From: Azorinus chamasolen
Taxonomy: Eukaryota > Mollusca > Bivalvia > Cardiida > Solecurtidae
Reading direction: 5' to 3'
Assembly (NCBI GenBank): GCA_963576725.1
Contig: OY755241.1
Location: forward strand, 24,092,449-24,156,448
Length of the DNA: 64,000 nucleotides
Part shown: piece after piece, positions 606 through 27,368 of the stretch
How the letters are laid out: each line of letters opens with the position of its first letter
How positions within the stretch are numbered: position 1 is the stretch's first letter
Program-made: the position numbers and the translations under genes
Notes under the pieces: model-generated
Seen by the model: the letters and a program-made list of their open reading frames with translations, nothing else
Told to the model about the DNA's origin: nothing
Database searches by the model: none

Positions 606-1615
606 TTATAAACATTTGTAAATGACGATGTCTTCGTCACGGAACACCCTGGTTCTAAGACGATATTCGTCTAGTCCTCTGGGAGACAGATCGATGACTA
701 GATAGCCGAATGGTATTTTCGTGGCATCTTGGAAAGCTTCAGTCAAACACCCAGCTTTCCCCGGAAATAACTGACGTCCCAAGTGTTGAATCTGAGATGT
801 ACCCCGAATGTTCTTGAATAGTATCATATACCAACAATTGAGAGCTATGGTTCTCGCCGACTTCCCCTGACCGTAAACGTTCTGAGTGATAAACACGACG
901 CTTAGTTTTCTATGATGACAGCCTCGCGTAAACAGTAGTTCGGCGGTTTTACTTTCCAGTACCTCGTGCATCAAGTCATCCAATATTATTAGGTCGTGCT
1001 GTACCCCGGCGAATTCTTCGATTTCTGTCGCGGTAGGTAACCCCTGGTGTAAGGTCAAATTAGGCAGTCGTCTTTCCATGTCTTCGAAGAGCGATTGGTA
1101 AATTCCGTAACAGTACAGAATCTTTGAAGGAGGCGTCTGATACAAATAATCGAGTTGCCGAAGAAAATTAAACGTCCATCGCGTTTTACCGGAACCCGTG
1201 GGTCCCGCGACCATGATACTAGAACAGGGTTCGAATGGTAGGAGACTTTTGTCGAGGTTCGAATGCGGCGGCGGTGAAATATACGCTTCGGCACTCTGCG
1301 GCGGCGGCGGTGAAATATACGCTTCGGTACTCTGCGGCGGCGGCGGTGAAATATACGCTTCGGCGATGCGTCTTCTCTATAACCGCGTGACAGCGGCGGC
1401 GGCGGTGGCGATGCGTCTTCTCTATAACCGCGTGACAGCGGCGGCGACCATCGCATCAGGGCAGGTCCAGACCTATATCGGGATGGCGGCGATGACGGCC
1501 TGTCTAACGTATATCGTTGCCGCGACGGTGTCACTTCTCGGTGTATATTTCTCAGATGGCGTAACATGACGTCCCTTCTGGAAAACGAATTGTAACACTC
1601 CGGACAAGTATTCAT
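606..1615 (-). CDS. C2H2 zinc finger plus A32-like packaging ATPase, split over two frames
   Basis: Two overlapping minus-strand frames appear to make one gene. The first starts at 1,615 and carries a C2H2 finger near its N terminus (CPECYNSF, then HLRNIH), followed by a proline/arginine linker. The second is open from about 1,380 down to 606. It carries Walker A GPTGSGKT, Walker B with LIILDD, and a VFITQN sensor-like motif, the signature of FtsK/HerA-type A32 packaging ATPases that load viral DNA into capsids. The ATPase frame also continues upstream of the ATG at 1,214 through repeated EAYISPPPPQS units. The frame change falls inside a GC-rich tandem repeat (1,261-1,459). No good GT-AG intron was found there, so an indel, an assembly error or ribosomal slippage are the options. 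A finger-plus-ATPase fusion is my recollection of related invertebrate elements. Confidence 0.75.
1261..1459. repeat. In-gene tandem repeats within the ATPase linker
   Basis: Read on the minus strand there are two copies of a roughly 45-bp unit containing CTGTCACGCGGTTATAGAG, then three copies of a 36-bp unit containing GAAGCGTATATTTCACCG. Both units end in runs of CCG. The frame switch of the C2H2-ATPase gene lies here, so copy number and CCG-run length decide whether the gene is intact. Confidence 0.85.
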
Positions 1616-1668
1616 GACGTTCGATAGACCGAGAAAAAAAATAAATCTACAGATGGTCCCTCTTATTA

Positions 1669-2025
1669 TTATTGTTCGCGATTCATTCTAGCTAGTCTCA
1701 ATTCGTCAGCGATGGTGACTATGACGTAACGTTCCCTCAGGATGATAGGGACCACAGAGTGGTGTGTCCTAAGTAGTTGTTTTTTTCTGGACACGCTGAC
1801 GAGATCGGAAGCCAAGGTTCTTAGCAGGGTTCGTTTCCTCTCGAAGGTCTGTACGTCACGTCGTAAAGGGTTGATGGTGCCATCGACGATCCGTTTTATC
1901 ACTTCGCATACGGCTTTGGTTTGGGCGGGAGTGATGTTCGATAACAATTGTCTTCGGCCTCTGGTCACTCTCAGGGCTGCCAAATAATGCAAGTGGACGT
2001 ACACTCTAGACCGATTCATCGTCAT
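1669..2025 (-). CDS. Small basic protein of the Polinton-like element (copy 2)
   Basis: This 118-residue basic protein lies between the polymerase and the ATPase genes. It shares with the 241-570 product the order RQLL, T-x-Q, helix, KRTLLRTLA, and RKKQLLR. The two genes therefore look like an ancient tandem duplication now separated by the ATPase gene. Nothing identifies an enzyme activity. The product is predicted soluble, without signal peptide or membrane span. A DNA-binding or core role is possible from charge and context but not shown. Confidence 0.6.
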   Translation of the reverse strand: MTMNRSRVYVHLHYLAALRVTRGRRQLLSNITPAQTKAVCEVIKRIVDGTINPLRRDVQTFERKRTLLRTLASDLVSVSRKKQLLRTHHSVVPIILRERYVIVTIADELRLARMNREQ

Positions 2026-2078: not shown

Positions 2079-5000
2079 CTAATAACCGTAGGGCAGTGTG
2101 TCCAAGTTATCCAAGACCACTCGTTTGTCGTATACCACCCTGTACCGTTTTCTTTCTTCTCTACTATACAAAAGACGAGTGCTTTTGTCCCTAGTGATCT
2201 TGGACGGATTACTGACCACGATGACCTTGGAGGCCGGGACTTCCAAATCGTCATCTTCTCTCTTCCTTTTCCCGTAGGTGGTAGGACGGTCCGGGTCGAC
2301 GTGCCCTACCATTTCTCTAACGCTGCCAAAATTCAGCAATAGGCCATTGGCGTGGTTCAGACTAAAACCCCGGATCTTGCACGTCCGTTTGCCTTTAGCG
2401 GTCTCGTATGCGTAGTTTTTGGGCCCTCCGCTCACAAACTCGACGATGTGGTCCCCTTGACTTAATTCGTCGGTCAGTTCCCCTGCGAGGTACAAATGTA
2501 AAAAAAAAAACACCCAGTAAGTATAGACCAACGTTAGCGGTAGAGAGTTTTCGTCAAGACTATATACGCGAGATTATCTGACAGTGTATTATTTGTAACG
2601 TAATCCAACTTACCTAAATAATCGCCCAGAGGAGGGTCGTATTGGTCTGGTCTGCTAACGTAGATGACCGAGTCCGTGTCGTAGTACAGGACCCGGTCTC
2701 CGAGATGATCCAGGACGTCGTACAATTTGAGCCGGGCCCAGCAGGTTGTGAAGGTGGCCAAGAAGATGTTGGTTTTCATATCTTCCGGCACAAACCCCGA
2801 CTGGTGCTCGTACTCAACGTGAAGGTTTTCCTCGTTGATTATATGAAAATCCTTCATCTTTTTCGTACGGTCCGTCAGCAATTTGTAAAACTTATCAATT
2901 TCGGAGTCGTGGATAAATTCGCAGACCCCTTGGTTGAGTCGCTGACCGAATTTTCCCCAGAAACTGCGAAAAGAGATACGAAACCGGTGATAAAATCTAT
3001 GCGAAGAAGGCACATCTATGAGATACAAAATGAAATAAGCTCACGGAATAGGTTGGAAAGAGGAACTATATTTACCTGTTCAGACAAAGTTTGGCCAAGG
3101 CTCTGAGTCCGGGGTTCTTTTTTATGTTTTCCGGGTCCAGCTGAACGCCCTCGTTACGAAAATAGTCCCTGACATATTTCTCTTTGTCTGTTTCCGTCTT
3201 ACACCAATCGGGCCACCCCGAAGCTTCCTGTTTGAACTTGAGGAAGGTATTCACGTAAGCGGTAAACAACCCTCCGGTGCCAGTGACCCTATCGTACTTG
3301 GTGGAGTCGTCCCAGTGGTACATCTCGTAGATTTTAAGGAGAGTATACCCTTTCTCCAGGGCCTTCTGGATTTCGGGCGTGCACCATGTTCCCACGAAGG
3401 CTCTCTGATCATCGGTGTGACTACAGCTCCGGGCGCTTTCTTTATCGGCGCAGGATCGACAAAGCGGGAACTTGAGTTTGCCGTTGGACCTATACGGTAA
3501 TACCGGATGGTATAGGCCGCGGGGCGCCAGGATTTTGACTTTGGCCAGTCCGAAGTAGGACCGGATGTCTCCGAAATCGTCAGTAACGATTTGAGGATGC
3601 CCGATGGGGTACCGGCTGTATTTGTTGACGTACGGGTACAAGCTGCGAAGAGAAAAAAAACACAGTCTACGAGGCAATCTGGTTTTAACGTCGAAATGTT
3701 TTCAATGCATTAAGGTCAATGTCACGCGTACTAAATCGTACCACGCGGATAGATACCTAGTAAAGTCCACGTAGTTGATTTTCTCCGACTCCTTGGCCAC
3801 ATAGTGAAGTTTGGCGGCATTGGTCCGGCCGCCGAAGAAGGAGTCTCGCGGGTCCAACCTATCCTGGATGTCCAGGGTAGCTACAAAGTCTCGAACGTCG
3901 GGATCCTCTTCCATTCGTTTCTGCCATTCGTGTTCCCATATACACACGTACCGGAATCGGAGGTCACGAGTCAACACCTTTTTCTTAATTTGGGTCAAGG
4001 CGTACAATTGATCCATGCTTTGACCGGTTTTCGAATTCTTGACGGTGCGTTCCGGATAACACTGGGGGCATCCGTGCCACAAACAACCTGAAAAGAATAA
4101 GGATTATTTTAGTTTACATCGTTATGTATAACAAAAGGTGGAAAATGTATGCGTAGTTTGCGGTTAATATAATAATACTGTAGCATCTGTTCGCACTTAC
4201 CGTGGTATTCGTACGCGGTGTTGCCAGCCCGCCCGTCCAATTTGTAGGAGGTACCTACCACCCTGACCTCACCCCCGTTCATCGCGTGTTCTATGTGAAG
4301 GGACTCTCCGTTTCTTCTGGCCAGTTCCATTTGGTACTCTAACCATTGAATGGAGGCGTTGCTAAAGGTGTCCCGTTGGACGTACCCGGCGCTGGGGACC
4401 TGGGCGATGGGGGATGTCAGTGGCCTCTTGCTCTGCACTTCCGCCGAGGAGGGTAGAGGGCGCCAATCGTTCGAACGTTTGTCGAATTTCAGCCAGCCCT
4501 CGGGCGTTTTTTTCAGGGTGGCTTTACTGGAAACATCGCCCTGAAGCATGACACGCGCTCCGTAGTCGGCTTCCAGAAACCTTGTTTTGTAGATTCCCAT
4601 GCAGACGCTGGCGATGGTAACGTACTGGAACGGATCTACCTCGGTGGCATTCAACATCAGACGTCTGAATTGGAGGCAAGCCCGCCGCAAAATGTCTACA
4701 TCAGATCGGCAATAGGCCTCCATTTCCCGTCGGAAGTCGAAAAGGGCGCCGCTTTCCGTCTTCTCTCGGTGCCATGTCAAGAAGGCCTCTCTGTCGACGG
4801 TAGACATGTAGTCGACCCCGTAAGACTTCGTATCCGGCAAGGGTCCAACGTAAGATTGGTTTTCCCTTTTGTTGAAAAAGTGGGGGAAGTAACCCTTGCA
4901 CAATTCCGACAGTCCGAATGCTTTGGGAAGCGCCGCTAACTTCATGGGTAGGAAGTTCAGGGAGTCGAGGACCCGGATGTGAAGCCCTTTAGCCACTTCC

Positions 5001-7619
5001 ATGTACATGATTTTGGACCCGTTGTATATGACTTTGGAGGGACGTACGCTATGGCCGACCAGATATTCTAGGAGGAAGACGCCGTCGTAGCCCTGTAACG
5101 ATACAGAAATAAGCGCGACTTTAATTTTCGTAAATATTAATGTCATGTTGTTTTGTTTTTTGTTGTTGTTTTTTTTGAATATCGATACATTGATGTCCAT
5201 TTTATACATTATAGATTGGTAGAGTCTGCCTTAATACTGACCTTCATGTTGTGAGCCAAGACGGTAGCGTCTTTATGTTGGGCGCTGAACAGCCAGTTGC
5301 CAAAATCTTCGAGGGTCTGGTCTCCTCGGAATAAGATTTCTCGCAAGCCGCACCTATCGGGGCAAGGCGGGCGAACGAAGGCCGACGTCTCTTTATCCCA
5401 GGCGTCACATCTGTGACACCGGCTGCCGCACTGGTCGCACCTGGAATGCGGGGTCAATTCCTGGTCTTTACAAACGTCGCAGACCGTTTGGGCTACCACG
5501 AAGTTGGGGACGTGTCTAGGTTGGCCGCACCAAGACTTGAAGCACCGTTGACATTTGGCGCCAGGTTGCTCCGGGGCGTATCCTTCCGAGCACTGAGCGA
5601 GCGTGTCCTGGGTGGCCTCGAAGTCGAAGAAAATGAATTTGGACGAGGGTTTCTTGGGCTCCTCGGGAAACAAATAACATCGATGGTGTCCCGTCACCCA
5701 GGACTGGCAACACTTACAGAGCCATTCGTCGCACTGGTGCAATTTCGCTGGCCTCTTGAAACGATTTATCACCTTCTTGCAGGTGGTACACCGCCAGTAC
5801 TCGTCGCATTGAGAGAGGATGACGTCCCCTTTATCGCCGTTCTTCCGGGTAGTCTTGACCAGATGCCTCTCGAAACAATCTCTCGACCTACAGACCATGT
5901 GGCATGACCGACAAGACATCGTGGTATCCGTTTCGGAGCAGTTCCGACTCTTGCAGGTCAGACACGTGGTCTGGCAACGATGCTTGGTATTTTGATCATA
6001 CTGCTTGAAGCACCGCTCGCAAAAGTAGATAGCCGAAAAGAACCCGGCGATGTTAGTAATGGCGTGGAAATGACTGACACCTTCGTGGTCCACTAAGTAT
6101 AAATAGAGAAGAGGCCAGTCCTCGTGCTGGTTGTCAGGTACCCGAATAAATTTATTGCCCAGGGACGCGGCCACCACGGCTATTCGAATATGGAGGGCTT
6201 CTTCGAAAGCCGGAAGGTCGTTGAGGGACCCGGGCCGATCGGTAGGCACGCCGGCTTTTTCGCAGAGGAGCAGGGCCAGATGCTTTTGTTCTTGACGTTT
6301 CTTGTTTTTTATATGTTTGAATGACCCCTTGGAGATCTGAGAATTTTGGACCAGAATCTCGAGGTTGGTCATTTCTCTTTGTTCGTCTTTCAACCTTTTC
6401 CAATCGTCGTCAGAGACCAGACACAGCTTCGTGAACCCTACCCCGATCGCTCTAGCCATACAGAGTTGATCATCGTTGACTATCTGAACCATGGATGTCT
6501 TTTTATGGATACAATTATCCGGTCCGGTCAGCTTAGTCACTCTCCTCCTTGGCCCCCCTGCGCCTCGAGGGATATGTAAGGCCCCGACGATGACTGAAAG
6601 AAAACAAAATGCTTCAGATAATGCCATTTTAAAGTTATTCTGTATTTTGATATTAAGATTTATATTTTTTAAAACATTTTTGAACAACGTATGTAGTTGG
6701 TTATGCGCATTTCACGGAAATTGTGCTTACCTTGAAAGGAGTCGTCCACTGCCAAGTTCTCCTCGCTCTGTAATACGTTTTCTATTTTGGTTAAAATCTT
6801 TTCCACGTCCATGTCCCCGGCCTCCTGGAGGGGGATCACAATGGCGTGATTGAGGGCGTCGTGCCGCAAGACGACCCTCAGAAGATCGTTGTCGTTAATC
6901 CCCTCTCGGGCTCTAACCAGCAGCTCCTCGAAAAGACGATGCAGTTGCGCCCTCAAGTCGGCCAAACGTCTCCCCTGCCATTGATCATTAAACCGGACAC
7001 GGTACGTGGACTCGACCGCCGTGGCACGGGCAAACCGGCGAACCCCCGACAACTCGATCTGATAGGGGGCCTCTCGCCGAGGTTCGTCCGCTCCTCCCCT
7101 CTGCTCGAAGGAAGGTCCAGCCACGGGGGAATCGGTGGGCTCTGGTGTCTCCATCGCGTACTTTGATCTGAATCAGATAAGAATGCGGGTTTATGTGAAC
7201 TGTCTCTTAAATATAGAGCCGGAGAGTTGATGTTACGTAACATAAGGCTAAAACGAGATGATAATGTCAGCTTACTTCTCAACATGGGCTGCGGCGAGGG
7301 ATATCGCTTGGGCCTCGGTCCTCGGAGACCAGGGTTGAAACTCCGCGTCGGCAAGGGTTATAGCCGCCTCGGTAGCGCGGGGAGACCAGGGTTCAAACTC
7401 ATCAACTTGGGGAGAAGGAAGTGCAGCTAATAAAGCGTCCGCGTCTTCCACGTCCCAAGGGACGGTAGGACCAGTTAAGGTCTCACTAACCAATAATTGG
7501 TAGTAAGCGTCCCTTATGAGACTGTGGCCCCTTAAACCGATAGAAGAGAAAAACTCTAAAAAATCCTCTGCAGAGATACCCTCGGAAATCATACCGGCGA
7601 CGATATCTCGTAGAGCCAT
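2079..7619 (-). CDS. polB: Protein-primed family B DNA polymerase, eight exons
   Basis: Exons (minus strand, coding order): 7619-7276, 7167-6731, 6593-5242, 5092-4201, 4087-3757, 3642-3076, 2963-2614, 2482-2079. All seven introns are GT-AG and 108-149 bp; exon lengths sum to 4,677 bp, exactly 1,559 codons including stop. Exon 1 (residues 1-114) has a doubled 'E-x-PWSPR' segment. Exon 3 carries a long Cys-rich zinc-binding region and Exo I (FFDFEAT). Exo II (GYDG) opens exon 4, with Exo III (YCRSDVD) later in that exon. Exon 5 has DPRDSFFGGR. Motif A (SLYP) spans the exon 5/6 junction, motif B spans the 6/7 junction, and motif C (YDTDS) is in exon 7. All exonuclease and polymerase signatures are present. 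The family replicates linear Polinton/adintovirus-type DNA by protein priming. The start at 7,619 sits in a strong GCCATGG context. The gene looks intact. Confidence 0.88.
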
Positions 7620-7650
7620 GGCGTTCTGGAAAAAAAAGATACAATGTATA
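7620..7650 (-). promoter_or_regulatory. Probable splice acceptor of an untranslated leader of polB
   Basis: Immediately upstream of the polymerase ATG, the minus strand has a pyrimidine tract ending TTTTTTTTCCAG, with AG at 7,627-7,626, then AACGCCATGG. This is a good 3' splice site, so the mRNA may carry an untranslated 5' exon further right. No donor was assigned. Confidence 0.4.
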
Positions 7651-7679
7651 TGTCTGTATTTATAGTTTAACATATTTAC

Positions 7680-8289
7680 AGTTTATGGAGAATACTTGTA
7701 AAGCTCAGGACCTTATCAATTTATTAGATATAAAAAATATAATAATACTCTTCGCTTCTTTTATGGGTCATATTTTCCCCGTCAACTTTGCAGCGAAATG
7801 GATATTTAAGAAGTATATTTTAAGCTGAAGTCGTTTTAAGCATAAAAGTAGTGTATATGGAGTGTCCGGGACATATCATACTTTACTGTAGAGTTCCTCT
7901 ACACCATACATTAGCTGAAGATTAGCTGTAGGAACAACATAAAATGGCGTTTAGGATACAAATGATCTACGACACACCGTCTAGCAGTAGAGCCGACATT
8001 ATAGTTTCTAAAGACATTCTGAAATGATAACAAGAGAGACAACTAAGCCTGGTATGTCACAATTTCAGTAATATGGCGTATGGCTTTTTCTCTGTCTAAA
8101 TTGTAAATGAATGCTAATCCAAAGCGACCTACTTCTACCGGTTAAAATTGTTTAACTGTTACCTTTATCGTTTTATCAAATTGACTCGATCTGGAACTTA
8201 TAACAAATTAGATAACGGTATGTTTACAGAGCAAATGGTTTAAGTTAAGATAAGATGTTTGAGTTACAAGACTCATTCAGTAAGGAACC
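7680..8289. other. AT-rich spacer with one tiny ORF
   Basis: No clear gene, terminal repeat or target duplication of the Polinton-like element is visible. A 27-codon plus-strand ORF (7,944-8,027, starting MAFRIQMIYD) has A at -3 and G at +4 of its ATG, but no homology or splice support, so I do not call it a gene. The element's right end probably lies in or near this stretch, but I could not locate it. Confidence 0.4.
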
Positions 8290-9134
8290 ATGTCCGGTTA
8301 TGTACGTATTCAAGTTGGTTACTTTTTATTTTTTTTAAAAAAACAACAACAAAAACCACCAAAAAACAACAACAAACTTTTGTATTGCTTAAAAAGTGTA
8401 GTGTTTTTTAGTGTTTTTTTTCAGATTTACGGATTAATATTTTTTTTAAATATTTTATTATTACAGTACACAAGATATCAGAGACGGTTGAGAAAGGGAA
8501 GGGGTACAGAGGATTCCCCAGTTATTGTTGACACGGTAAGACATTTAGTATTAGAATATATATGTATGTGCGCGCGTGTATGCGTGTAATGTATATAGTT
8601 TACAAGTACATTTTTGCTTATGAATAGCTTATGATTATTTGGATCATACTGTTTAATAACTTAATAGCATGTATAAATGTATATATCTATACGAATACAA
8701 ATATTAGGTATTTCTCTGTGACTACGCGATATTTTGATTCAATGTTTTAGTAGTGACTTGATGACAATTGATCAACCCATGACTTTCCCTTACGTGTTAT
8801 AGTCTAAATGATATGTAGGGAGATTTTTTTATTTCATTTACTTAAATCATATAGTTTTTTATCTACGAAGTAATTTATAAGAAAACATGTAAGGTAGAAA
8901 GGCATATTAATGGAAATTGGAATTGATGAGCAAAGATGAAATTTCAGTAAAGATAAGGATTTCAGAAATATCATATTCTAACGTTGTTGGTTGGTGATTG
9001 ACAAGTTAAATAAAGCTTTTGTTTTATTCATTTATAGCCTGATGAAGTGCCTAGAAAACGCTTGTTCTCTTCTGTAAGTATTTTACACACATTTCACTCT
9101 GTAATTCATTTAATGGTAATGAATGTTAATGGTA

Positions 9135-9205
<71 letters not shown>

Positions 9206-10249
9206 TATTGTAGACTAGTTGTTATTGTTTTCTGATTACACTATTAAAAATATTAATTTAAGTATGATATTTTAAGAAAAAAGGAATCATTAGTACTGAT
9301 GTCTTTGCAATTTAAGAATTATGTGACATTGTTAAAACTCATTTGGTTTCACCTAGCGACTAGTCAGTATTTATAGAGATAATGTCAATACATAAAAACT
9401 CAGTACTGATATAATGTCATTGTATAATTGAGTATATCTAGTTTGTAATTGTATCCTTTTTATAATAAGTCTACATAAGTGTACCTTTAATGCTGTACAT
9501 TTATTATACATCGCTGTAATTACTTTTAACTGATATTGTAGACTTATCATGCAGTTTTTTCTATTATTGTTTACTTTTCAATTTCATTTCAGACGCCTTA
9601 CTCCAGTCCTACAGAGAAGTTGGACTGGTCCAATTCCGTTAGTATATTATGCAAAATTAATTGTTTGGCTTTACGCATACACACATACACGAGTACGCAC
9701 GTGCACGTACGTATTCACGCACGCGCACACACACACACACACAAGTGCGTACTCGTACTGTTAGGGCTATGTGTATTTATATGTATTCTAAACATATTAA
9801 AAATTCTGAAGGGTGGTGATCCCGCGAAAGCAAAAATTGCAACACAAAAAGAGAAAATTGCAGACTCGGTTTTATTGAGTCTGTTCATGAAGAAAATAAT
9901 CAATGGATACTTTATTCTTTCTTGAGTAATAAGAGGTATTTAGTATTACGCCATTCTGCTGTATAAGTGATTATTATTATAATTTCATGTTTTAACATAA
10001 TACTACCAATTTTCTCCATTATTTCAGACTATCAGATGGGAGGTTGACTGTAAACTGGTAAGTCATTTACATTGTGTTTCAGTCAATTAATTCGTAGACT
10101 ATAAACGAAACATTTTTAACGATTAAAACCGAACGCATTAGGTACTAAACTTTATTTTTATGGATATGTACTTTCAGGAGATGGCCAGGGCACAATTAAA
10201 CATCATAAAAGCGGAAGTGCGACGGCTGGAAAATTTGCTTGATATGTAA
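8290..10249 (+). CDS. Small gene made of phase-0 mini-exons, unknown function
   Basis: Five exons are bounded by AG and GT sites: 8467-8535, 9038-9073, 9593-9637, 10028-10057 and 10178-10249. They are 69, 36, 45, 30 and 72 bp, all multiples of three and all in phase 0, and the last ends in TAA. A possible first coding exon is 8290-8301 (ATG with A at -3, followed by GTACGT), giving a product of about 87 residues; this first exon is the least certain part and more 5' exons may exist. The product has a basic start (RYQRRLRKGR), short Ser/Pro-rich pieces and a C-terminal amphipathic helix (AEVRRLENLLDM) that could form a coiled coil. I do not recognise the family. The last three exons recur as a pseudogene at 35.1-35.7 kb, which supports the exon calls. 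Confidence 0.6.
9137..9202. repeat. CA then TA dinucleotide microsatellite
   Basis: A run of about 17 CA units passes directly into about 15 TA units, inside the intron between the 36-bp and 45-bp mini-exons. A second short CA-type run lies at 9,721-9,742 in the next intron. Confidence 0.95.
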
Positions 10250-11940
10250 AAAAATCAAGGAATTAAAACATATAAAAATGTGGCAATTTATGTATTTTAT
10301 ACTCAAAACCTAGAAACAACGATAATACAAGCGTTATTCTAAGCTAAATACCAGATTTGGAGGATGTATTGCCGGAGTTTCATACTAGTTTACAATAGTC
10401 AATGTCATAGACCAAAGGAATCGGGTCTTAAGCTTAGAATATCGTTTTTATTACGATGCATCAAACATATATAGTGTTTTGTTAAGCGGGGAAAACACGA
10501 GGTTCTGTACCAGACTTGACATCTGCTCAGAGAATTTCGTCTACTAAATGTATCGTTCTGTTTCTAATCGGAAATTACAAGATTTTCCCAATTTTGATGA
10601 GAACATTTTTTAGATATTAAGTATATCAAAAAGTAAAGAGGAGGATACTTTAAGCGGGCGAAATTTTTTAGGCAACATCCTTCCTTAGGGTTGTCTTCAA
10701 AGGTATACCATCAGTCATAATCATTAACCTTTATGTATCTGGAGAGTATCGAGTTTTTGGATCACGATGTGAGGTAGGAAAATGGGTCTCATCTGCATAA
10801 TCGTGGCTAAGTACAGTTCTGTTGGGTTCTAAGATAGTCATCTAATCTAAAGTAGCGCTTATGTCCTTCGTCAGTTGGAAACCCGTAGTCAGCTATAAAA
10901 TAACTATCGGTTTGGAGCTGAACGTCGGTGCCTTTGTCATTTTCTAGAGGTATAAAGGTGGAGAAAGGGTTAACTCGGTATAGATCCTGATGAGTGGTGT
11001 AGAGTTACGCCGCCGGAGCTGGATATCTTACTTTTTCTACTTCGACGGTGATACAACTTTAGCGATTTGAAAGAGAAAACAGAGAATAGTTTCCAAACTA
11101 ATTGCCACTGGTATTTTGAAATAAATGATACCTTTTTCTAGAAACGACGAATTTTTCTACGGACGATTGAATCACGTTTCGAGTTTTAGGTTTTAAAAAC
11201 GGAAAAGAGGTAAAAAGTGTAGGTTAAGGGTTCAATCGGAATGTAAACATTCGCCATGGCTACGGTTAGTTAATCGCTTAGCTGCCCTTTCGCTGAACGG
11301 GGAAAATGCGGTCTGCTGTTAGTGACGATCGTCTATTTAAGAGCATCTAAGTTGAATTTTCGTTTTATTTTCGACGATTAGGTTACAGACCCGAAAGAGA
11401 AGGGGAGTTAGGTCTAGATCCACCCTATAAAGACTGGCTATTATAGTAGATTCATCCGTAAGGTATAAAGGAAAGGAGAGAGAACGACGGTCTACTTACC
11501 TTTTTTTTCTGTCGTCTGCTGGATATTTATTCCGAAAAGAACTATCCGTTTAGAGTACGTTCGACGCGGGTGTCAAAATCGAGATGAGTAAAAAAGGTAT
11601 CTGGGCGTCGGTACTTATAACCGTGGACGGCGTTGGCGGGAAAAATAGCGTCCTTTTCCTTATACGGATGTACGGTTTCCGACGTCGACGTGGCGATGGC
11701 CAGTACCGTTAGCATCTTTTCTATAAAAGGCTATAGCATTTCCGGCGGAGGCTGGTAATTTTCCGTCTACGTCGGAAAGGTACCGTTAACGTACGTTTCT
11801 TTAGAAAAGGGTTAGGATGTAATGGAAATTTTCCGTGCCAGGTAGCGGACGTGGCATATTTTTCTCTCGATACGGTCGGGACATTTCCGGCTGGAATTTT
11901 TTCCGTACCGCGTCGTTGAGGCGAAAGAAACGAATGACCG
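10250..11940. other. No gene recognised
   Basis: The stretch after the mini-exon gene has no convincing exon or repeat. It becomes less AT-rich rightwards and contains many short TTTTCCG/CGGAAAA words without clear periodicity. A minus-strand frame at 11,721-11,990 is basic and has no domain; I treat it as chance or as leader sequence of the promoter-like cluster beside it. Confidence 0.5.
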
Positions 11941-11956
11941 TTCTCACGCTCCGTTA

Positions 11957-12076
11957 CTATATATAGACGATGACTCGTCCCCTGACTCATCCCTTCTAAG
12001 GGGAGGGGCTAAGCGTGACTCGCTGTTACGTGGCGTCGATGACGCGGAGACGCTGTGACGTCACAGGGGGCGGGGC
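11957..12076 (-). promoter_or_regulatory. Promoter-like cluster: TATA, AP-1, CRE, GC box
   Basis: A CTATATATAG palindrome lies at 11,957-11,966. An AP-1-type TGACTCA is at 11,983-11,989, a perfect CRE TGACGTCA at 12,056-12,063 and GGGGGCGGGGC at 12,066-12,076, with further TGACTCG and TTACGTGG words between. The order GC box/CRE, then TATA, fits transcription to the left from about 11,930. These are sequence matches only; no transcript is shown. Confidence 0.4.
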
Positions 12077-12227
12077 TTGTCACCTGTCAATCAATGGCTC
12101 CAAACCGACGCCACTGTAGTTGAAGCATATCAAGTCACCTGACCGTAGTTAATGAGCTAAACCTATTTTCCCGCTTCCTATATTCTGGCTATAACTCTCG
12201 TACTAGACGGACGTCTTTATTATAGAA

Positions 12228-14101: not shown

Positions 14102-17100
14102 TGAATGAATGAATGAATGGTGTTTTACGGCCCATCGACACTGATGGTCATATAGAGCCGAATAAATAATGTAAATAAATCTATATGATGAAACCAAATA
14201 AAAACAATCTCACTTCTAGATTATGTAAATGTCAGTCCCGATCAACAGAAAATAAGGACAAAACATAATCGACATTCTAAAAATATACCTTTTAAATTTT
14301 AGAATATATATTAATGGCTTTTAAAAAATCAAATATTTTTGGTATTTCTACCAGCTCAAACAGTTCCCTCAGGGAATCTGCTTGAAAGAACCTATCTCTG
14401 ATTAAGATTAAATCAGGACATTCAATGAGAATGTGCTGAATTGAATAAGGCTCAAAACAAAATAAACATTCAGGTTGAACTTCGCCTTTCAGTAAAAATG
14501 AATGAGTTAAAAAAGAATGTCCAATTCTTATTCTGGCCAATACGACCTCATCACGCCGAATTGGCAAGCATGAACAAAAATGTTCACCTAAAATATGTTT
14601 AACAGCATGGAGCTTGTTATGAATTTCCTCATTCCAAGACTCCTGCCATTTATATAGAATTTGTCTAGTAATTTGTGGTTTGAAATCCCAAATACGGTAA
14701 TCTCATATCAGATTCAGGCGATTCAAGCGCAGACTTCGCTGCAAGGTCCGCCCTCTCGTTGCCCTGTATTCCACAATGACTAGGTATCCAACAAAATATT
14801 ACATCTTTTGAATTAGACATTTCATGGTATTTTAAAACAAGTTTTTTTTAATAAGAACATTTTTTGTAGAACATTTACTCAGAGATTGTAAAACAGAAAG
14901 AGAATCCGAAAAGATTATATGTTTACTATATGATTTTCCAGCAATATAATCAAGAGCTAAATCAATAGCTTTGATCTCTGCTGAAAAAATGGAGGCATTA
15001 TCAGGAAGCCGAAATTTTGTCTCTGTGTCATCAGCCACAAATGCAGCTGCGACTCTCTCATCATCTTTTGAACCATCAGTATAAACTTGTTCATAATCTT
15101 CAAATCTTGAAATTATTTCATTTAAAAAAGAACTGAATTCAAGCGAGCTTGTTTCAGACTTTTTATGCCGTGTTAGTTCAAAGATAACTTTTGGTGGTTT
15201 AATAGTCCAAGGCGGTATAGATTCAACTATAGTCTTTTCAACTAAAGACAAATCTATATCACTATTTTGAAAACTGTTTTTCATACGTATTCCGAAAGGT
15301 GGAATTACTTTTTCACGACGAGAGTAAAGTGATGGCTCATTCGCCTCAACATATAAACTTTTAGCAGAGGATGTCATAAAGGCACCCAATGCTAAACGTA
15401 AACCTTGGTGATGAATTGGATCAAGCATCTGCAAGTATGATTTCCTTGCAGAGCCATATACAACACTACCATAATCCAGTTTGGACCTCACTAAACTTCT
15501 ATACAATTTGAGCATTACATTGCGATCTGCACCCCATTCGGTATGTGCAAGAACGCGAAGCAATTTCAAAGTTTTCTGGCATTTAGCCTTTAAATATTTA
15601 ATACGAGGTATAAAGGAAAGTTTTTTGTCAAAAATGACACCGAGAAATTTCGCCTGGTCTACAACAGGAATGGGATCACCATTCAAGTGAAACTCCGGGT
15701 CATTGTGAAATTTTCTCAGTTGACAGAAATGTACACAATTTGTTTTAGACTTGGAAAATTTAAAACCGTTTTCAGTAGCCCATTTTTGAGCTTTATCAAT
15801 GGACTGTTGAAGTTGACGTTCAACAGTACGCATGTGTTTAGAACGGTAACAAATTAAAAAGTCATCAACATACAATGAACAATCCGTGTCATTAGAAATA
15901 GATTGAACAATATTATTAATTTTAACATTAAATAGAGTAACTGACAAAATACTTCCTTGTGGAACACCCATTTCCTGTTTTTGCATATCAGAAAGAGTAG
16001 TTCCAACGCGGACTTGAAATTCCCTATCATTTAAAAAGTTTTCAATAAAAACTGGAAGTCGACCTTTAAGTCCTGATTCATGAAGGTCTTTCATTATGCC
16101 ATACTTCCAAGTTGTATCGTAAGCTTTCTCAAGATCAAAGAAGACAGCAACCAAGTGCTCCTTCTTGATGAAAGCTTCGCGAATAAATGTTTCCAACCTA
16201 ACTAAATGATCATTTGTACTTCTTTGGCTCCTGAATCCACTTTGATACTCCGTAATGAGGTTACCAAACAAGTCTTGCGTTAATCATGCGCTCTAAAGTT
16301 TTACATACGCAGCTCGTCAAGGCTATGGGACGATCATTATTTGGATCTGTGTTATCTTTCCCTGGCTTTGGAACAGGAATAACTGTTGCCTGTTTCCAAA
16401 ACTTGGGCAATTTACCACTTGACCATATATGGTTAAAAATATCTAAAAGAACATGCATACAATTTGAGGGCAAGTGCTTAAGAAATTGATAATGAATATC
16501 ATCAGGTCCAACAGCTGTATCGTGCGATTTATTAAGAGAATCAAACAATTCTCTCTCAGTAAAAGGTAAATTGTAGCTTTCAGTGTTATGAGAGGTAAAA
16601 TTAAGTTTTTCCTTTTCTTTACTCTTTTTAATGTTTCTAAATTCAGGAGTAGACTTAGCTGATGAAGAGTTTTTAGCAAAAGCATCAGCTAAGGAATTGG
16701 CTATATCTTTTACATCTGTTATTTTTTTTATCATCTGCATTTAAATGTCCAAAAGAAGATTTACCTTTACCACTTATTTTACGCACCATATCCCATACCT
16801 TCTTTACTGATGAACGACAATTTAATATAGAAACATATTTCTTCCAAGACTGTGATTTAACAGTCTTGATAGTACGACGAGCTTTAGCCCTAAATACTCT
16901 AAAATGATTTAAATTTTCCTGAGTAGGACTGACTTTAAATTTTCTAAGAGCTGCTTTACGCTTTCTAATAGCCTCCTTACATTCATCATCATACCATGGT
17001 TTAGGAGGTTTCTTTGGGTTTGATGAGGACTTTGGAATGCATTCTTCTGCCACTGAATATAAATTGGATGTAAATGTTTCAATGGGGTCATCACTATTTT

Positions 17101-18142
17101 CAAATACATCTGATCTTATCGTTTCCCTACACAATATTTCAAACTTTTCCCAATTTGCTTTCTTGAGTTTCCAGCGAGGAACACATTCCTCGACTGGAGT
17201 AGCAATATGGTTTAGAAATATTGGAAAGTGGTCACTTCCACATAGGTCGTCACCAACTTTCCAATCATAATCTAAGTAAATGGTAGGGTAACAAATAGAA
17301 AGATCAATGCAAGTAAAAGTTCCTGATGCCGGGTGAAGGTAAGTTGGGGACTTATTGTTGGAGATGCACAAATCGTGCTCACCAACAAAATCCTCAACAA
17401 TTTTACCTAAAGCATTTGTATTTGTAGATCCCCATAGAGGATTATGGCTATTAAAATCCCCTAACAATATAAATGGGGCAGGCAATTGTTCAACAAGGGA
17501 GTCAAGTTCTTTCTTGTCAACTGTTGTCCTTGGCGGAATATAAATAGAACAAAATGTAATGACCTTATGAAGGGTGACACTGACAGTAACAACTTGCAAA
17601 TTAGTTTTAATAGGTAAAAGACTATGAACAACAGAGTTGTTCACAATAATTGATGAGCCGCCAGCAGCTCTTTCACCATCGTTAAAAATATGATTATAAA
17701 TAGAATAATTTCTAAAGTTGACTTGATCAGTGTCCTTCAAGAATGTTTCTTGAAGACACATTATGGCCGGGTCATATTTATTTAGCAACAGAAGAATTTC
17801 ATTATAATTTGCCTTAAGTCCTCTACAATTCCATTGTATTACACAATTTTTCATTATTGATTAATGAAAATATATATTTAGTTAGGTTGGAGGTTTAACA
17901 GGAACAATCTTTGATTTGTCTTTTTTCTTTTTGGGGGATTTGGAAGAAGGAACAATGGATGTATGAACATCCATCACTTCTTCCTCATCCAAGCTGCCAT
18001 ACGTGTTGTGCAGCTTCACGGGATTGCCTTTACCATTTGGTAAAGAATCACTACAAACAACTTTCTTTTTAATGTTTTCCTGACTCCGAGGTAGTTCCTG
18101 GTCCGCCTGACATGCCATGTCAGACTTGCCAGGAACAGCAGA
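14102..18142 (-). pseudogene. LINE-A copy 1, main part: broken ORF2 and ORF1 end
   Basis: On the minus strand the 3' end (ATTC tail) is at 14,102. ORF2 is nearly complete but broken. The endonuclease part (16,685-17,854) has GDFN and SDHF; a T-run expansion near 16,725 changes frame. A deletion near 16,265 and another near 15,313 remove residues, and a T-run near 14,845 breaks the RNase H region. YVDD is kept. Positions 17,882-18,142 are the end of ORF1. The rest of ORF1 lies at 23,918-24,458, because LINE-A copy 2 inserted between. Target duplications ATCTGAAAAA flank the whole (14,092-14,101 and 24,459-24,468). Confidence 0.85.
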
Positions 18143-18340
18143 ATGAATGAATGAATGAATGGTGTTTTACGGCCCATCGACACTGATGGTCATATAGAGC
18201 CGAATAAATAATGTAAATAAAACTATATGATGAAATCAAATAAAGACAATCTCACTAGATTATGTAAATGTCAGTCCCGATCAACAGGATTGTAAATAAA
18301 ATAAGGACAAAACATAATCGACATTCTAAAAATATACCTT

Positions 18341-21300
18341 TTAAATTTTAGAATATATATTAATGGCTTTTAAAAAATCAAATATTTTTGGTATTTCTAC
18401 CAGCTCAAACAGTTCCCTCAGGGAATCTGCTTGAAAGAACCTATCTCTGATTAAGATTAAATCAGGACATTCAATGAGAATGTGCTGAATTGTATAAGGC
18501 TCAAAACAAAATAAACATTCAGGTTGAACTTCACCTTTCAGTAAAAATGAATGAGTTAAAAAAGAATGTCCAATTCTTATTCTGGCCAATACGACCTCAT
18601 CACGCCGAATTGGCAAGCATGAACAAAAATGTTCACCTAAAATAGGTTTCACAGCATGGAGCTTGTTATGAATTTCCTCATTCCAAGACTCCTGCCATTT
18701 ATATAGAATATGTCTAGTAATTTGTGGTTTGAAATCCGAATACGGTAATCTCATATCAGATTCAGGCGATTCAAGCGCAGACTTCGCTGCAAGGTCCGCC
18801 CTCTCGTTGCCCTGTATTCCACAATGACTAGGTATCCAACAAAATATTACATCTTTTGAATTAGACATTTCATGGTATTTTAAAACAAGTTTTTTAATAA
18901 GAACATTTTTTGTAGAACATTTACTCAGTGATTGTAAAACAGAAAGAGAATCCGAAAAGATTATATGTTTATTATATAATTTTCCAGCTATATAATCAAG
19001 AGCTAAATCAATAGCTTTGATCTCTGCTGAAAAAATGGAGGCATTATCAGGAAGCCGAAATTTTGTCTCTGTGTCATCAGCCACAAAGGCAGCTGCGACT
19101 CTCTCATCATCTTTTGAACCATCAGTATAAACTTGTTCATAATCTTCAAATCTTGAAATTATTTCATTTAAAAAAGAACTGAATTCAAGCGAGCTTGTTT
19201 CAGACTTTCTATGCCGTGTTAGTTCAAAAATAACTTTTGGTGGTTTAATAGTCCAAGGTGGTATAGATTCAACTTTAGTCTTTTCAACCAAAGACAAATC
19301 TATATCACTATTTTGAAAACTGTTTTTCATACGTATTCCGAAAGGTGGAATTACCTTTTCCTTGGATTCAAATAAACGTTGATATTTAGGTCTAAAAACA
19401 TTTTTATGAGCGGGATTTGATGGGTTTGAAGCTAATTTAGAGGTATACTGCATGGATAGTTTTTCACGACGAGAGTAAAGTGATGGCTCATTCGCCTCAA
19501 CATATAAACTTTTAGCAGGGGATGTCCTAAAGGCACCCAATGCTAAACGTAAACCTTGGTGATGAATTGGATCAAGCATCTGCAAGTATGATTTCCTTGC
19601 AGAGCCATATACAACACTACCATAATCCAGTTTGGACCTCACTAAACTTCTATACAATTTGAGCATTACACTGCGATCTGCACCCCATTCGGTATGTGCA
19701 AGAACGCGAAGCAATTTCAGAGTTTTCTGGCATTTAGCCTTTAAGTATTTAATATGAGGTATAAAGGAAAGTTTTTTGTCAAAGATGACACCGAGAAATT
19801 TCGCCTGGTCTACAACAGGAATGGGATCACCATTCAAGTGCAACTCAGGATCATTGTGGAATTTTCTCAGTTGACAGAAATGTACACAATTTGTTTTAGA
19901 CTTTGAAAATCTAAAGCCGTTTTCAGTAGCCCATTTTTGAGCTTTATCAATGGACTGTTGAAGTTGACGTTCAACAGTACGCATGTGTTTAGAACGGTAA
20001 CAAATTAAAAAGTCATCAACATACAATGAACAGTCAGTGTCACTAGAAATAGATTTAACAATATTATTAATTTTAACATTAAATAGAGTGACTGACAAAA
20101 TACTTCCTTGTGGAACACCCATTTCCTGTTTTTGCATACCAGAAAGAGTAGTTCCAACACGGACTTGAAATTCCCTATCATTTAAAAAGTTTTCAATAAA
20201 AACTGGAAGTCGACCTTTAAGTCCAGATTCATGAAGGTCTTTCATTATGCCATACTTCCAAGTTGTATCGTAAGCTTTCTCAGGATCAAAGAAGACAGCA
20301 ACTAAGTGCTCCTTCTTGATGAAAGCTTCACGAATAAATGTTTCCAACCTAACTAAATGATCATTTGTACTTCTTTGGCTCCTGAATCCACTTTGATACT
20401 CCGTAATGAGGTTGTTGGATTCAAGATACCAAACAAGTCTTGCGTTAATCATGCGCTCTAAAGTTTTACATACACAGCTCGTCAAGGCTATAGGACGATA
20501 ATTATTTGGATCTGTATTATCTTTCCCTGGTTTTGGAACAGGAACAACTGTAGCCTGTTTCCAAAACTTGGGCAATTTACCACTTGACCATATATGGTTA
20601 AAAATATCTAAAAGAACATGCATACAAATTGAGGGCAAGTGTTTAAGAAATTGATAATGAATGTCATCAGGTCCAACAGCTGTATCGTGCGATTTAGTAA
20701 GAGAATCAAACAATTCTCTCTCAGTAAAAGGTAAATTGTAGCTTTCAGTGTTGTGAGATGTAAAATTAAGTTTTTCCTTTTCTTTACTCTTTTTAATGTG
20801 TCTAAATTCAGGAGTAGACTTAGCTGATGAAGAGTTTTTGGCAAAAGCATCAGCTAAGGAATTGGCTATATCTTTTACATCTGTTATTTTTTTATCATTT
20901 GCATTTAAATGTCCAAAAGAGGATTTACCTTTACCACTTATTTTACGCACCATATCCCATACCTTCTTTACTGATGAACGACAATTTAATTTAGAAACAT
21001 ATTTCTTCCAAGACTGCGATTTAACAGTCTTGATAGTACGACGAGCTTTAGCCCTAAATACTCTAAAATGATTTAAATTTTCCTGAGTAGGACTGAATTT
21101 AAATTTTCTAAGAGCTGCTTTACGCTTTCTAATCGCCTCCTTACATTCATCATCATACCACGGTTTAGGAGGTTTCTTTGGGTTTGATGAGGACTTTGGA
21201 ATGCATTCTTCTGCCACTGAATATAAAATGGATGTAAATGTTTCAATGGGGTCATCACTATTTTCAAATACATCTGATCTAATCTTTTCCCTACACAATA

Positions 21301-22018
21301 TTTCAAACTTTTCCCAATTTGCTTTCTTGAGTTTCCAGCGAGGAACACATTCCTCGACTGGAGAAGCAATGTGGTTTAGAAATATTGGAAAGTGGTCACT
21401 TCCACATAGGTCGTCACCAACTTTCCAATCATAATCTAAGTAAATGGTTGGGTAACAAATAGAAAGATCAATGCAAGTAAAAGTTCCTGATGCCGGGTGA
21501 AGATAGGTTGGGGACTTATTGTTAGAGATGCACAAATCGTGCTCACCAACAAAATCCTCAACAATTTTACCTAAAGCATTAGTATTTGTAGATCCCCATA
21601 GAGGATTATGGCTATTAAAATCCCCTAACAATATAAATGGGGCAGGCAATTGTTCAATAAGGGCGTCAAGTTCTTTCTTGTCAACTGTTGTCCTTGGTGG
21701 AATATATATAGAACAAAAAGTTATGACCTTATGAAGGGTGACACTGACAGTAACAACTTGCAAATTAGTTTTAATAGGTAAAAGACTATGAACAACAGAG
21801 TTGTTCACAATAATTGATGAGCCGCCAGCAGCTCTTTCACCATCGTTAAAAATATGATTATAAATAGAATAATTTCTAAAGTTGACTTGGTCAGTGTCCT
21901 TCAAGAATGTTTCTTGAAGACACATTATGGCCGGGTCATATTTATTCAGCAACAGAAGAATTTCATTATAATTTGCCTTAAGTCCTCTACAATTCCATTG
22001 TATTACGCAATTGTTCAT
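18341..22018 (-). CDS. LINE-A ORF2: endonuclease, reverse transcriptase, RNase H
   Basis: This 1,225-residue ORF is intact. An APE-type endonuclease fills the first 230 or so residues (QWNCRGLKAN, LQETFL, LLGDFNSHNP, GSDHFP). The reverse transcriptase follows, with YRPIALTS, GFRSQRSTND, KAYDTTW, GVPQGSILS and the catalytic YVDD. RNase H is C-terminal (VYTDGSK, SAEIKAI, FSDSLSVL, WIPSHCGIQGNERAD), with all acidic residues visible. A Cys-rich end (PECLFCFEPYTIQH) follows. The product copies the element into DNA at nicked target sites. One motif A neighbour reads FFDPEKAYD, where the other copy has FFDLEKAYD. The gene starts 25 bp after the ORF1 stop. Confidence 0.92.
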   Translation of the reverse strand: MNNCVIQWNCRGLKANYNEILLLLNKYDPAIMCLQETFLKDTDQVNFRNYSIYNHIFNDGERAAGGSSIIVNNSVVHSLLPIKTNLQVVTVSVTLHKVITFCSIYIPPRTTVDKKELDALIEQLPAPFILLGDFNSHNPLWGSTNTNALGKIVEDFVGEHDLCISNNKSPTYLHPASGTFTCIDLSICYPTIYLDYDWKVGDDLCGSDHFPIFLNHIASPVEECVPRWKLKKANWEKFEILCREKIRSDVFENSDDPIETFTSILYSVAEECIPKSSSNPKKPPKPWYDDECKEAIRKRKAALRKFKFSPTQENLNHFRVFRAKARRTIKTVKSQSWKKYVSKLNCRSSVKKVWDMVRKISGKGKSSFGHLNANDKKITDVKDIANSLADAFAKNSSSAKSTPEFRHIKKSKEKEKLNFTSHNTESYNLPFTERELFDSLTKSHDTAVGPDDIHYQFLKHLPSICMHVLLDIFNHIWSSGKLPKFWKQATVVPVPKPGKDNTDPNNYRPIALTSCVCKTLERMINARLVWYLESNNLITEYQSGFRSQRSTNDHLVRLETFIREAFIKKEHLVAVFFDPEKAYDTTWKYGIMKDLHESGLKGRLPVFIENFLNDREFQVRVGTTLSGMQKQEMGVPQGSILSVTLFNVKINNIVKSISSDTDCSLYVDDFLICYRSKHMRTVERQLQQSIDKAQKWATENGFRFSKSKTNCVHFCQLRKFHNDPELHLNGDPIPVVDQAKFLGVIFDKKLSFIPHIKYLKAKCQKTLKLLRVLAHTEWGADRSVMLKLYRSLVRSKLDYGSVVYGSARKSYLQMLDPIHHQGLRLALGAFRTSPAKSLYVEANEPSLYSRREKLSMQYTSKLASNPSNPAHKNVFRPKYQRLFESKEKVIPPFGIRMKNSFQNSDIDLSLVEKTKVESIPPWTIKPPKVIFELTRHRKSETSSLEFSSFLNEIISRFEDYEQVYTDGSKDDERVAAAFVADDTETKFRLPDNASIFSAEIKAIDLALDYIAGKLYNKHIIFSDSLSVLQSLSKCSTKNVLIKKLVLKYHEMSNSKDVIFCWIPSHCGIQGNERADLAAKSALESPESDMRLPYSDFKPQITRHILYKWQESWNEEIHNKLHAVKPILGEHFCSCLPIRRDEVVLARIRIGHSFLTHSFLLKGEVQPECLFCFEPYTIQHILIECPDLILIRDRFFQADSLRELFELVEIPKIFDFLKAINIYSKI

Positions 22019-22043
22019 TATCGATTAATGAAAATATATTTAG

Positions 22044-23300
22044 TTAGATTGGAGGCGTAACAGGAACAAGCTTCTTGTCCTTTTTCTTTTTGGGGGATTT
22101 GGAAGAAGGGACAATGGATGGATGTACATCCATCACTTCTTCCTCATCCAAGCTGCTATACGTGTTGTGCAGCTTCACAGTGTTACCTTTACCATTTGGT
22201 AAAGGACCACTACCATTATGGTTTTTAGAGTTTTTCTGTTTCTGGGTGGAGTTTGAGTTCTTCGGACTCTGAGGTGATCTCTGAGTCGCCTGACATGCCA
22301 TGTCAGACTTGCCAGAGTCAGAAATATTTTTGTAATTTGGCGCACCGTGTGGCCAGGTGATTATTGTCCGAGTTTCAGCGTTCCTAGTTTGAATTTTACA
22401 TGTATTTTCCTTCACCTTATCTGCATAAGATGAGCCCGCAACAGTGGAAGGTTTTGAAGCTTCCACAATTTTACGGGCTTCAGGAAAGGACACATTCTGT
22501 AGAACACGAATTCTCTGGATTTCCTTTTCCTGCTTCCACTTTGCACACTCGTTCGAGTAGACAAAGTGATCCCCTTTGCAGTTAAAACACTGCACAGGGT
22601 TTTCACAGGTCGAGGAATCATGATCTTCCTGACCACAACGGGCACATATTGATTTCTTGGTGCATTTGTCCTTATGATGTCCAAACCTCTGACAGTTAAA
22701 ACACCGAAGAGGATTTGGAATGAAAGGGTCAACGTCGAGGCTTAAGTAGCCACACATGATTCTTGGTGGAACGAACGGGACGTTAAACTTCAGAATGAAA
22801 GTATTGGTCACTATATCTCTACCGTCTCTAACAAACTTGATACGTTTAACTTCCGTAACATTCTGATTGTTAAGTTCTGCTAGCATTTCTTCCTCATTGG
22901 TGTGCTGAAGATCACGGCTTCGCACAACTCCTTTGCAGAAATTCAAGGACTGATGAGGAGACACTTGTATCGAAATACCAGCAAACGTTTTACTTTTAAG
23001 TAAGTTGTCAGATTGTTGCTTTTTTGCACATTCCACCAGAATCTTTCCTGACCGTAAAACTTTTATGTCTTTTAGCTCACCTGCCAGTCCCTGCAGTGCT
23101 TTCGCAACAGCGAAGGGAGACAACTTTGCCAAAGATTGTGCATCATTTACTGGACAAATTACCAAGAATCTTGGCCAATAATTGATTGATTTTGGTTGAT
23201 TGGTATGTTCACGGTCAGACTCTGATGACTCAGAGTCCTTCCGTGATCTTTTGAAAGTATTTGAATTTGAATTTGAGCGTTTTTTGGCGGGGGTTGCCAT
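22044..23300 (-). CDS. LINE-A ORF1: CCHC zinc-knuckle RNA-binding protein
   Basis: This 418-residue ORF begins MATPAKKRSNSN with a basic Ser-rich region. A central folded domain follows (about 40-190). Then come three zinc knuckles (CFNCQRFGHHKDKC, CARCGQEDHDSSTC, CFNCKGDHFVYSNEC), as in gag-like ORF1 proteins of I/Jockey-group LINEs. The C-terminal 130 residues are polar and basic and end with KSPKKKKDKK. The protein is expected to coat LINE RNA. The ORF is intact; a partial relative lies at 23,918-24,458 in copy 1. Confidence 0.9.
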   Translation of the reverse strand: MATPAKKRSNSNSNTFKRSRKDSESSESDREHTNQPKSINYWPRFLVICPVNDAQSLAKLSPFAVAKALQGLAGELKDIKVLRSGKILVECAKKQQSDNLLKSKTFAGISIQVSPHQSLNFCKGVVRSRDLQHTNEEEMLAELNNQNVTEVKRIKFVRDGRDIVTNTFILKFNVPFVPPRIMCGYLSLDVDPFIPNPLRCFNCQRFGHHKDKCTKKSICARCGQEDHDSSTCENPVQCFNCKGDHFVYSNECAKWKQEKEIQRIRVLQNVSFPEARKIVEASKPSTVAGSSYADKVKENTCKIQTRNAETRTIITWPHGAPNYKNISDSGKSDMACQATQRSPQSPKNSNSTQKQKNSKNHNGSGPLPNGKGNTVKLHNTYSSLDEEEVMDVHPSIVPSSKSPKKKKDKKLVPVTPPI

Positions 23301-24458: not shown

Positions 24459-24468
24459 ATCTGAAAAA

Positions 24469-27038: not shown

Positions 27039-27368
27039 ACGAGTCTCTTTCAAAAACGAAATTATATTCTCGTACGGAACTGTATTAAATAACTGTTGCA
27101 TAGAATCAACAGAAAAGTATTTATGTCTTATTATAGAAAGGTCAATACATTCAATCAAAAAATGTTTTACTGTGTATGGCTCTTGACAGAAGACACATTC
27201 TGGTTGAATTCCGCGCTTTAGTAAATAGGAATGAGTAATATGAGTGAGTGAGTGAGTGAGTTGGGTTTTACGGCACCGCGACACTGCGCTGTTTGCTTGT
27301 GATATGGCATTGGTACTGTTTTTTCAGTTTCTGCTATAGTAAAGGGTTCCATTGTTCATATCATTATA

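Follow-up and report, generated by a model that had tools for sequence, protein, structure and literature searches.

Here, we describe a DNA polymerase gene (polB) of a Maverick/Polinton element in the bivalve Azorinus chamasolen, which is laid out in eight coding pieces separated by seven GT-AG introns that are predicted to be removed by the host's splicing machinery. The gene runs on the minus strand from position 7619 to position 2079 of a 64,000-nucleotide stretch of contig OY755241.1 (C7:24092449-24156448 of the 1.72-Gb assembly). We refer to this whole stretch as the window, and positions given without a prefix count from its first letter. We place the probability that this is a Maverick polymerase, likely of group I, with seven host-spliced introns at close to nine in ten.

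Gene structure and support from outside relatives

The eight exons sum to 4,677 nt, equivalent to 1,559 codons with the stop, and predict a product of 1,558 residues, with no internal stop in any of the eight pieces. Exon 1 (E1; 7276..7619) opens with the start codon at 7617-7619 and is followed by intron 1 (7168..7275; 108 bp, phase 2) and exon 2 (E2; 6731..7167), which has homologues in the fetched proteins P0252, P0258, P0259 and P0264. After intron 2 (6594..6730; 137 bp, phase 1), exon 3 (E3; 5242..6593) contains a Cys-rich region and the start of the exonuclease domain, both recognized by eye. Intron 3 (5093..5241; 149 bp, phase 0) leads into exon 4 (E4; 4201..5092), whose 3' end encodes the first part of a Vsr-like insertion. 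Intron 4 (4088..4200; 113 bp, phase 1) lies within this insertion, the remainder of which is found in exon 5 (E5; 3757..4087). The last three introns, namely intron 5 (3643..3756; 114 bp, phase 2), intron 6 (2964..3075; 112 bp, phase 2) and intron 7 (2483..2613; 131 bp, phase 1), separate E5 from exon 6 (E6; 3076..3642), exon 7 (E7; 2614..2963) and exon 8 (E8; 2079..2482), the latter ending in the stop codon at 2079-2081.

When the exons were searched singly, E4 and E6 matched Pfam DNA_pol_B_2 (E = 9.4e-20 and 2e-8, respectively). Intron 5 splits ..DFT^SLYP at the end of E5 and intron 6 splits KLCLN^SFWGKFG at the end of E6, which we take to be polymerase motifs A and B, while YYDTDS in E7 is presumably motif C. 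The first-pass annotation, made from the sequence of the window, had proposed eight exons with GT-AG borders and 1,559 codons, motifs A and B cut by introns, and intron lengths of 108-149 bp; the reading frame, phases and splice borders bear this out, both motifs are split as described, and the measured lengths agree.

Pyrimidine-rich text precedes most acceptors (e.g. TTTGTTTTCTTTCAG at intron 2), and GC content is 0.53 in exons and 0.34 in introns, compared with 0.379 in the DNA to the right of the element (12127-64000). Since each junction offers between 4 and 25 possible in-frame GT..AG pairs in overlapping frames, the splice sites by themselves are no proof, and relatives were therefore compared. 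The idea that the introns are introners was rejected, as the seven have only short mutual matches, the longest listed being 15 bp.

Outside protein searches with single exons returned 516 matches for E4, 432 for E6 and 28 for E3, from which 120, 120 and 28 proteins (268 altogether) were fetched; relatives named in these searches include oyster, mussel and Solemya, but also spiders. Contiguity across the exon junctions (J1/2 to J7/8, or J1-J7) was called by rule, and the resulting counts are lower bounds because some proteins scored as one-sided are contiguous by eye. By this rule, four proteins are contiguous across J2/3, 51 across J3/4, 27 across J4/5, 40 across J5/6 and 16 across J6/7, and none of the 268 across J1/2 or J7/8. 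At the residues that correspond to the window's junctions, other fetched proteins break off or continue into text resembling a donor or acceptor (e.g. AHNMK^VS.., ..FFQ^GYDG, YEYH^GK.., ..FFS^LYPYVN and AKLCLN^R-stop). The searches kept only proteins of 0.55-1.75 times the query length, and the true share of intron-bearing forms can therefore not be derived from these counts.

A contig search added two DNA loci, L001 and L002, on contigs that are binned with bacterial metagenome-assembled genomes and are likely contaminants there. L001 holds E4 to E8 adjoining one another in the same frame, albeit with a stop inside E5 and a frame change before E4; exactly 3 nt, i.e. one codon, lie between the pieces at J4-J7 and encode G, S, S and G, the same residues that the split codons of the window give. 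L002 carries E2 to E8 in a single frame of 1,325 aa, with one codon between the pieces at J4, J6 and J7, the text AHYGK-GYDF at J3, and 6 nt (two codons) at J5, as expected because the match stops one residue short of the end of E5. Across junctions 2 to 7, intronless relatives thus have as many residues as the exon model predicts; for J7/8, the backing comes from L001, L002 and the single-frame copies described below. Scans of viral contigs with E4, the queries A1, A2 and A3, and a piece of L002 confirmed no relative.

These comparisons bear on the possibility that the gaps are random insertions in a decaying single-frame polymerase. Most vertebrate Maverick loci are indeed decayed, and gene-prediction software calls their insertions introns, according to the accessible portions of PMC8097293; some copies in the present genome are damaged as well. 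However, all seven gaps run from GT to AG, those at J2-J7 sit exactly where the relatives' sequences join, relatives from other sources have breaks with splice-like text at these very residues, matches among the gaps themselves are short, and most sister copies have retained their splice sites and frame, with exons under selection (see below). We consider such decay very improbable.

The element and its sister copies

The polymerase resides in an 18,918-bp element (C7:24085651-24104568) that extends beyond the start of the window and whose right end is window position 12,120; its left part was fetched separately (L029). The right terminal inverted repeat (TIR; 11690..12120, 431 bp) is 97% identical to L029:3203-3625 in inverted orientation. 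It is followed by the target site duplication (TSD) TGAAGC at 12121..12126, the left copy of which is found at L029:3197-3202; at the edges, TGAAGC abuts ACTACAG in L029 and CTGTAGT abuts TGAAGC in the window, i.e. the 6-bp duplication is perfect. An integrase is encoded at L029:8626-9765 on the minus strand (rve, 8.5e-13; Chromo, 5.6e-7). With a family B polymerase of the organellar/viral, putatively protein-primed type (DNA_pol_B_2), an rve integrase, TIRs and a 6-bp TSD, the element is a Maverick/Polinton.

A profile of 25 relatives had Vsr endonucleases as its sole structure hits (1odg, 1vsr and 1cw0; E = 0.0045-0.0063), and a second profile matched the same structures with E values of 0.058-0.082. 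The stretch concerned is the one split by intron 4, and E4 and E5 of the window keep the residues conserved in relatives. In the sections available of PMC10328495, a Vsr-like insertion of ∼140 aa in PolB distinguishes group I Mavericks, and the weak but specific match suggests that the window element falls into this group. Separately, a profile of E6 retrieved a single structure named "DNA polymerase", PDB 1xhx (E = 0.017), which we take to be the phi29 polymerase.

An E4 search of the assembly gave at least 123 matches. Nine further close copies (L011-L019) were all fetched, which together with the window makes ten intron-bearing copies. Over full-length E4, eight of them are 94-97% identical to the window at the protein level (one with a stop), and the ninth, which has a deletion in E4, is 96-97% identical on both sides. 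Introns 2-7 are present with GT..AG in seven of the nine (L011-L016 and L019). Among L011-L016, net exon length (E3-E8) differs from the window in 12 of 36 comparisons, every change being -6, while intron length (introns 2-7) differs in 24 of 36, 20 of these differences not being a multiple of three; the comparisons are not independent events, as the copies have common ancestry. Ratios of nonsynonymous to synonymous divergence (dN/dS), calculated piece by piece over E4-E8, are 0.14, 0.17 and 0.16 between the window and L011, L014 and L016, respectively, at a dS of ∼0.10 and an intron divergence of ∼0.07; the sister pairs L011-L016 and L014-L016 both give 0.17. Purifying selection hence acts on the exons, while introns diverge at roughly the rate of silent positions.

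The 5' part of the gene receives its support from the sister copies. Exon 1 matches L016 and L018 with 81% DNA identity over most of its length, and a pattern search found the phase-2 donor AA^GTAAG after exon 1 in six of the nine copies (L011, L012, L013, L015, L016 and L018); intron 1 is at the same place in L011, L012, L013 and L015, where it measures 111-112 bp and ends in TTTCAG. L014, L017 and L019 gave no straightforward hit to this pattern, although L014 reads AA^GTGAG by eye. The region upstream of E3 (exons 1 and 2) is far more diverged among the copies than the remainder of the gene, and exon 2 has, by eye, a zinc-finger-like start in L011, L014 and L016 that is missing from the window.

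Mobility of the family can be read from its insertion sites. Compared with L011 (contig C17) over 8.3 kb, L012 (C18) is 99.7%, L013 (C1) 99.9% and L015 (C1) 99.5% identical, and these alignments end sharply at one end. L011 and L012 have an inverted terminus at their other end (98.9% identity over 351 bp in L011) and 6-bp TSDs of their own (gttaga and aatatc), delimiting elements of 16,424 and 16,190 bp. The window copy stands further apart from these sisters, with 93.8% identity to L011 over 5 kb. Four near-identical copies on three contigs argue that the family has likely been mobile recently, introns included. The 200-bp terminus of the sister family has at least 56 matches in the genome (40 of 70 candidates were scored) and none in the window copy, whose termini differ. 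Inverted pairs of this terminus lie ∼6-10 kb apart, for example at C6:85540308-85548068, C12:3411000-3418163 and C9:27592152-27599085; they are likely shortened derivatives. That the polymerase might instead be a domesticated host gene, which gained introns once it had become immobile, would fit the purifying selection on its exons; yet the gene sits in an element with TIRs, a TSD and an integrase, and near-identical sisters occupy different sites, the two that were checked each with its own TSD. This alternative appears hardly credible to us.

Several observations weigh against a host-spliced group I Maverick polymerase or parts of this reading. First of all, host splicing is a prediction from DNA sequence. 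The donors of introns 5 (GTATCT) and 6 (GTAAAT) are below consensus strength, and only introns 1 (at 5 nt) and 3 (at 44 nt) have a branch-point-like YTRAY motif in the 45 nt next to the acceptor. Exon 1 has no homologue among the outside proteins, and direct comparison with two of them gave no signal, as shuffled sequences matched the score in 129 and 29 of 500 trials. As to group I membership, the Vsr match is weak, with E = 0.0045 at best, and Pfam Vsr is found in only 1 of the 25 profile members (E = 0.23). Some sister copies are damaged: L017 is missing most of E5 along with the end of intron 4; L018 lacks the start of intron 7 and carries stops and frame changes; L019 is short of 84 nt in E4, with a stop in E7; and a stop also interrupts E5 of L013. 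Besides, dN/dS is 0.28 for the pair L011-L014, and the introns of L011 and L016 have diverged less (0.008) than their silent sites (dS 0.034), so that sister copies may be mosaic. Finally, an ATPase-like frame of the window element (606..1376, minus strand; Walker A GPTGSGKT by eye; AAA_22 4.2e-4 and Pox_A32 0.0015, both below the curated cut-off) does not join the zinc-finger frame (1055-1687, minus strand), the two being in different reading frames; the ATPase gene may be broken, and the window copy may accordingly be decaying. Both frames extend around a tandem-repeat tract at 1265-1444, with repeats of 36 and 45 bp.

Intron turnover and comparison with published Mavericks

The genome also contains single-frame polymerases of the same kind. 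Open frames of more than 1,000 aa account for 25 of the 123 E4 match rows, corresponding to 18 distinct frames (lower bounds). Six were fetched (L020-L025; frames of 1,552, 1,555, 1,405, 1,597, 1,410 and 1,385 aa) and are homologous to the window gene across E2-E8, yet without introns at J2-J7 and with E4 identities of 36-49%. In five of the six, E2-E8 form one open frame, the exception being L022 with a frame change within E7. Intron-bearing and single-frame polymerases thus coexist in one genome. The first-pass annotation had proposed that a Polinton polB lineage either acquired introns in a host nucleus or belongs to a virus-like element adapted to splicing, and had named as a possible objection related elements with an intact frame through the intron sequences. 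Single-frame relatives do exist, but they lack the intron sequences and none reads through them, so the proposal of introns acquired in a host nucleus stands, supported by the TIRs, the TSD, the rve integrase, the introns of the sisters and the intronless relatives.

Intron states form a patchy pattern on the E4 and E6 trees. Of the 108 tips of the E6 tree, 33 carry intron 6, and introns 5 and 6 are scattered there among intronless tips; in the E4 tree intron 4 occurs in two separate clades and a third clade has an intron shifted ∼15 nt downstream. Other clades apparently have a displaced intron upstream of motif A. An additional intron-like break ("3b") after E4 residue 171 is present in nine relatives (P0005, P0006, P0008-P0012, P0014 and P0041) and absent from the window; a tree that groups the nine carriers to the exclusion of the window is compatible with the data (approximately unbiased (AU) test, p = 0.28), and loss of 3b by the window is not required. 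The intron states were assigned by text rules on protein fragments, and the "5+" labels of P0146, P0153, P0185 and P0218 look wrong; the trees themselves derive from short segments, many of their nodes are weak, and their tips are biased by the search length limit. We read the patchiness as probable repeated turnover, with the direction of gain or loss mostly not fixed by the trees.

The scattering of introns 5 and 6 and the two clades with intron 4 could also mean that group I polymerases had introns from the outset and that the single-frame families lost them, rather than this lineage gaining them. Set against this are the more distant relatives known as DNA (L002, L024 and L025), which are single frames, and the shifted introns of other clades (15 nt downstream of intron 4 and upstream of motif A), which point to separate gains; we regard an intron-rich ancestor as possible, though unlikely. 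Under the preferred reading, in which introns entered a host-spliced Maverick polymerase, the family's starting state was likely a single open frame, and introns were likely gained piecemeal and sometimes lost within it. The element would be transcribed in the nucleus, the host spliceosome would remove the seven introns before PolB is made, and the element's own polymerase would copy its DNA, which the rve integrase of the element would then insert. Because the element would be copied as DNA, the introns would be inherited and not erased.

A further-reaching proposal is that this Maverick lineage now depends on the host spliceosome, with introns gained repeatedly at or beside motifs A and B and splicing acting as a licence by which replication is bound to the nucleus of the host. 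As the introns run through motifs A and B, unspliced RNA could give no active polymerase, and the introns would be maintained since copying of the element proceeds through DNA only. Such a regulatory role of the introns is speculative, and we consider it doubtful.

A seven-intron polB departs from the published, intronless elements. In the available text of PMC8097293, 134 intact vertebrate Mavericks have intronless open reading frames (ORFs; "No introns were observed"), a finding that the paper describes as consistent with Kapitonov and Jurka 2006. Vertebrate group I Mavericks, as far as described in the accessible parts of PMC8097293 and PMC10328495, have the same PolB with a Vsr-like insertion, an rve-type integrase, TIRs and a 6-bp TSD, and differ from the window element in being intronless (PMC8097293), which is an observed trait and no part of a definition. 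Polinton-like viruses are reported to carry group I self-splicing introns (PMC12220804), which are distinct from spliceosomal ones, and introns were considered for a dinoflagellate element, with GT-AG boundaries not found (PMC12721341). The literature searched contained no report of spliceosomal introns in a Maverick polB; subscription papers and Repbase annotations were mostly outside this search, so the absence of such a report is not proven. A large survey chose an intron-blind gene finder on the grounds that endogenous viruses are without introns (PMC10120064, in the portion available); gene finding of this kind would fragment and undercount intron-bearing, recently mobile Mavericks. Besides, intron-bearing and single-frame polymerases of one family in one genome could serve as a natural system for studying how, and how fast, mobile DNA gains introns.

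Further genes of the element and its surroundings

As in the window element, polB and an rve integrase share one contig in L001 and L002 (rve, 4.5e-10 in L001 and 2.3e-4, below the cut-off, in L002). The polymerase of L001 resembles that of L002 in being contiguous, here over J4-J7, but is disrupted, whereas L002 has a single frame, unlike the window. The window element has PC4-like and TBP-like frames (L029 4400-5489), and L001 shares a TBP-like gene (7189-7755); these Mavericks thus appear to carry putative transcription-factor frames. To the left of the window, an adenain-like protease frame matches Peptidase_C5 below the cut-off (E = 0.0026; 17.9 versus 21.3 bits), and two capsid-sized ORFs of 420 and 137 aa adjoin the integrase and the protease; neither had a match in Pfam (E up to 0.1) or PHROGs (E up to 0.01).

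A gene of mini-exons lies on the plus strand, opposite to polB, at 8467-10249 between polB and the right TIR, with exons assigned by eye at 8467-8535, 9038-9073, 9593-9637, 10028-10057 and 10178-10249 and introns of 120-519 bp. The first-pass annotation had contrasted the short polB introns with those of this "nearby" gene (given as 165-700 bp). This contrast fails, because the element reaches position 12,120 and the gene therefore lies inside it; polB would accordingly not be the sole spliced-looking gene of the element. Beyond the right end of the element, the stretches 14292-27049 and 59120-61804 hold reverse transcriptase ORFs of LINE-like type, the longest named measuring 1,227 aa, as well as a gag-pol stretch resembling Gypsy; these names were given by eye.

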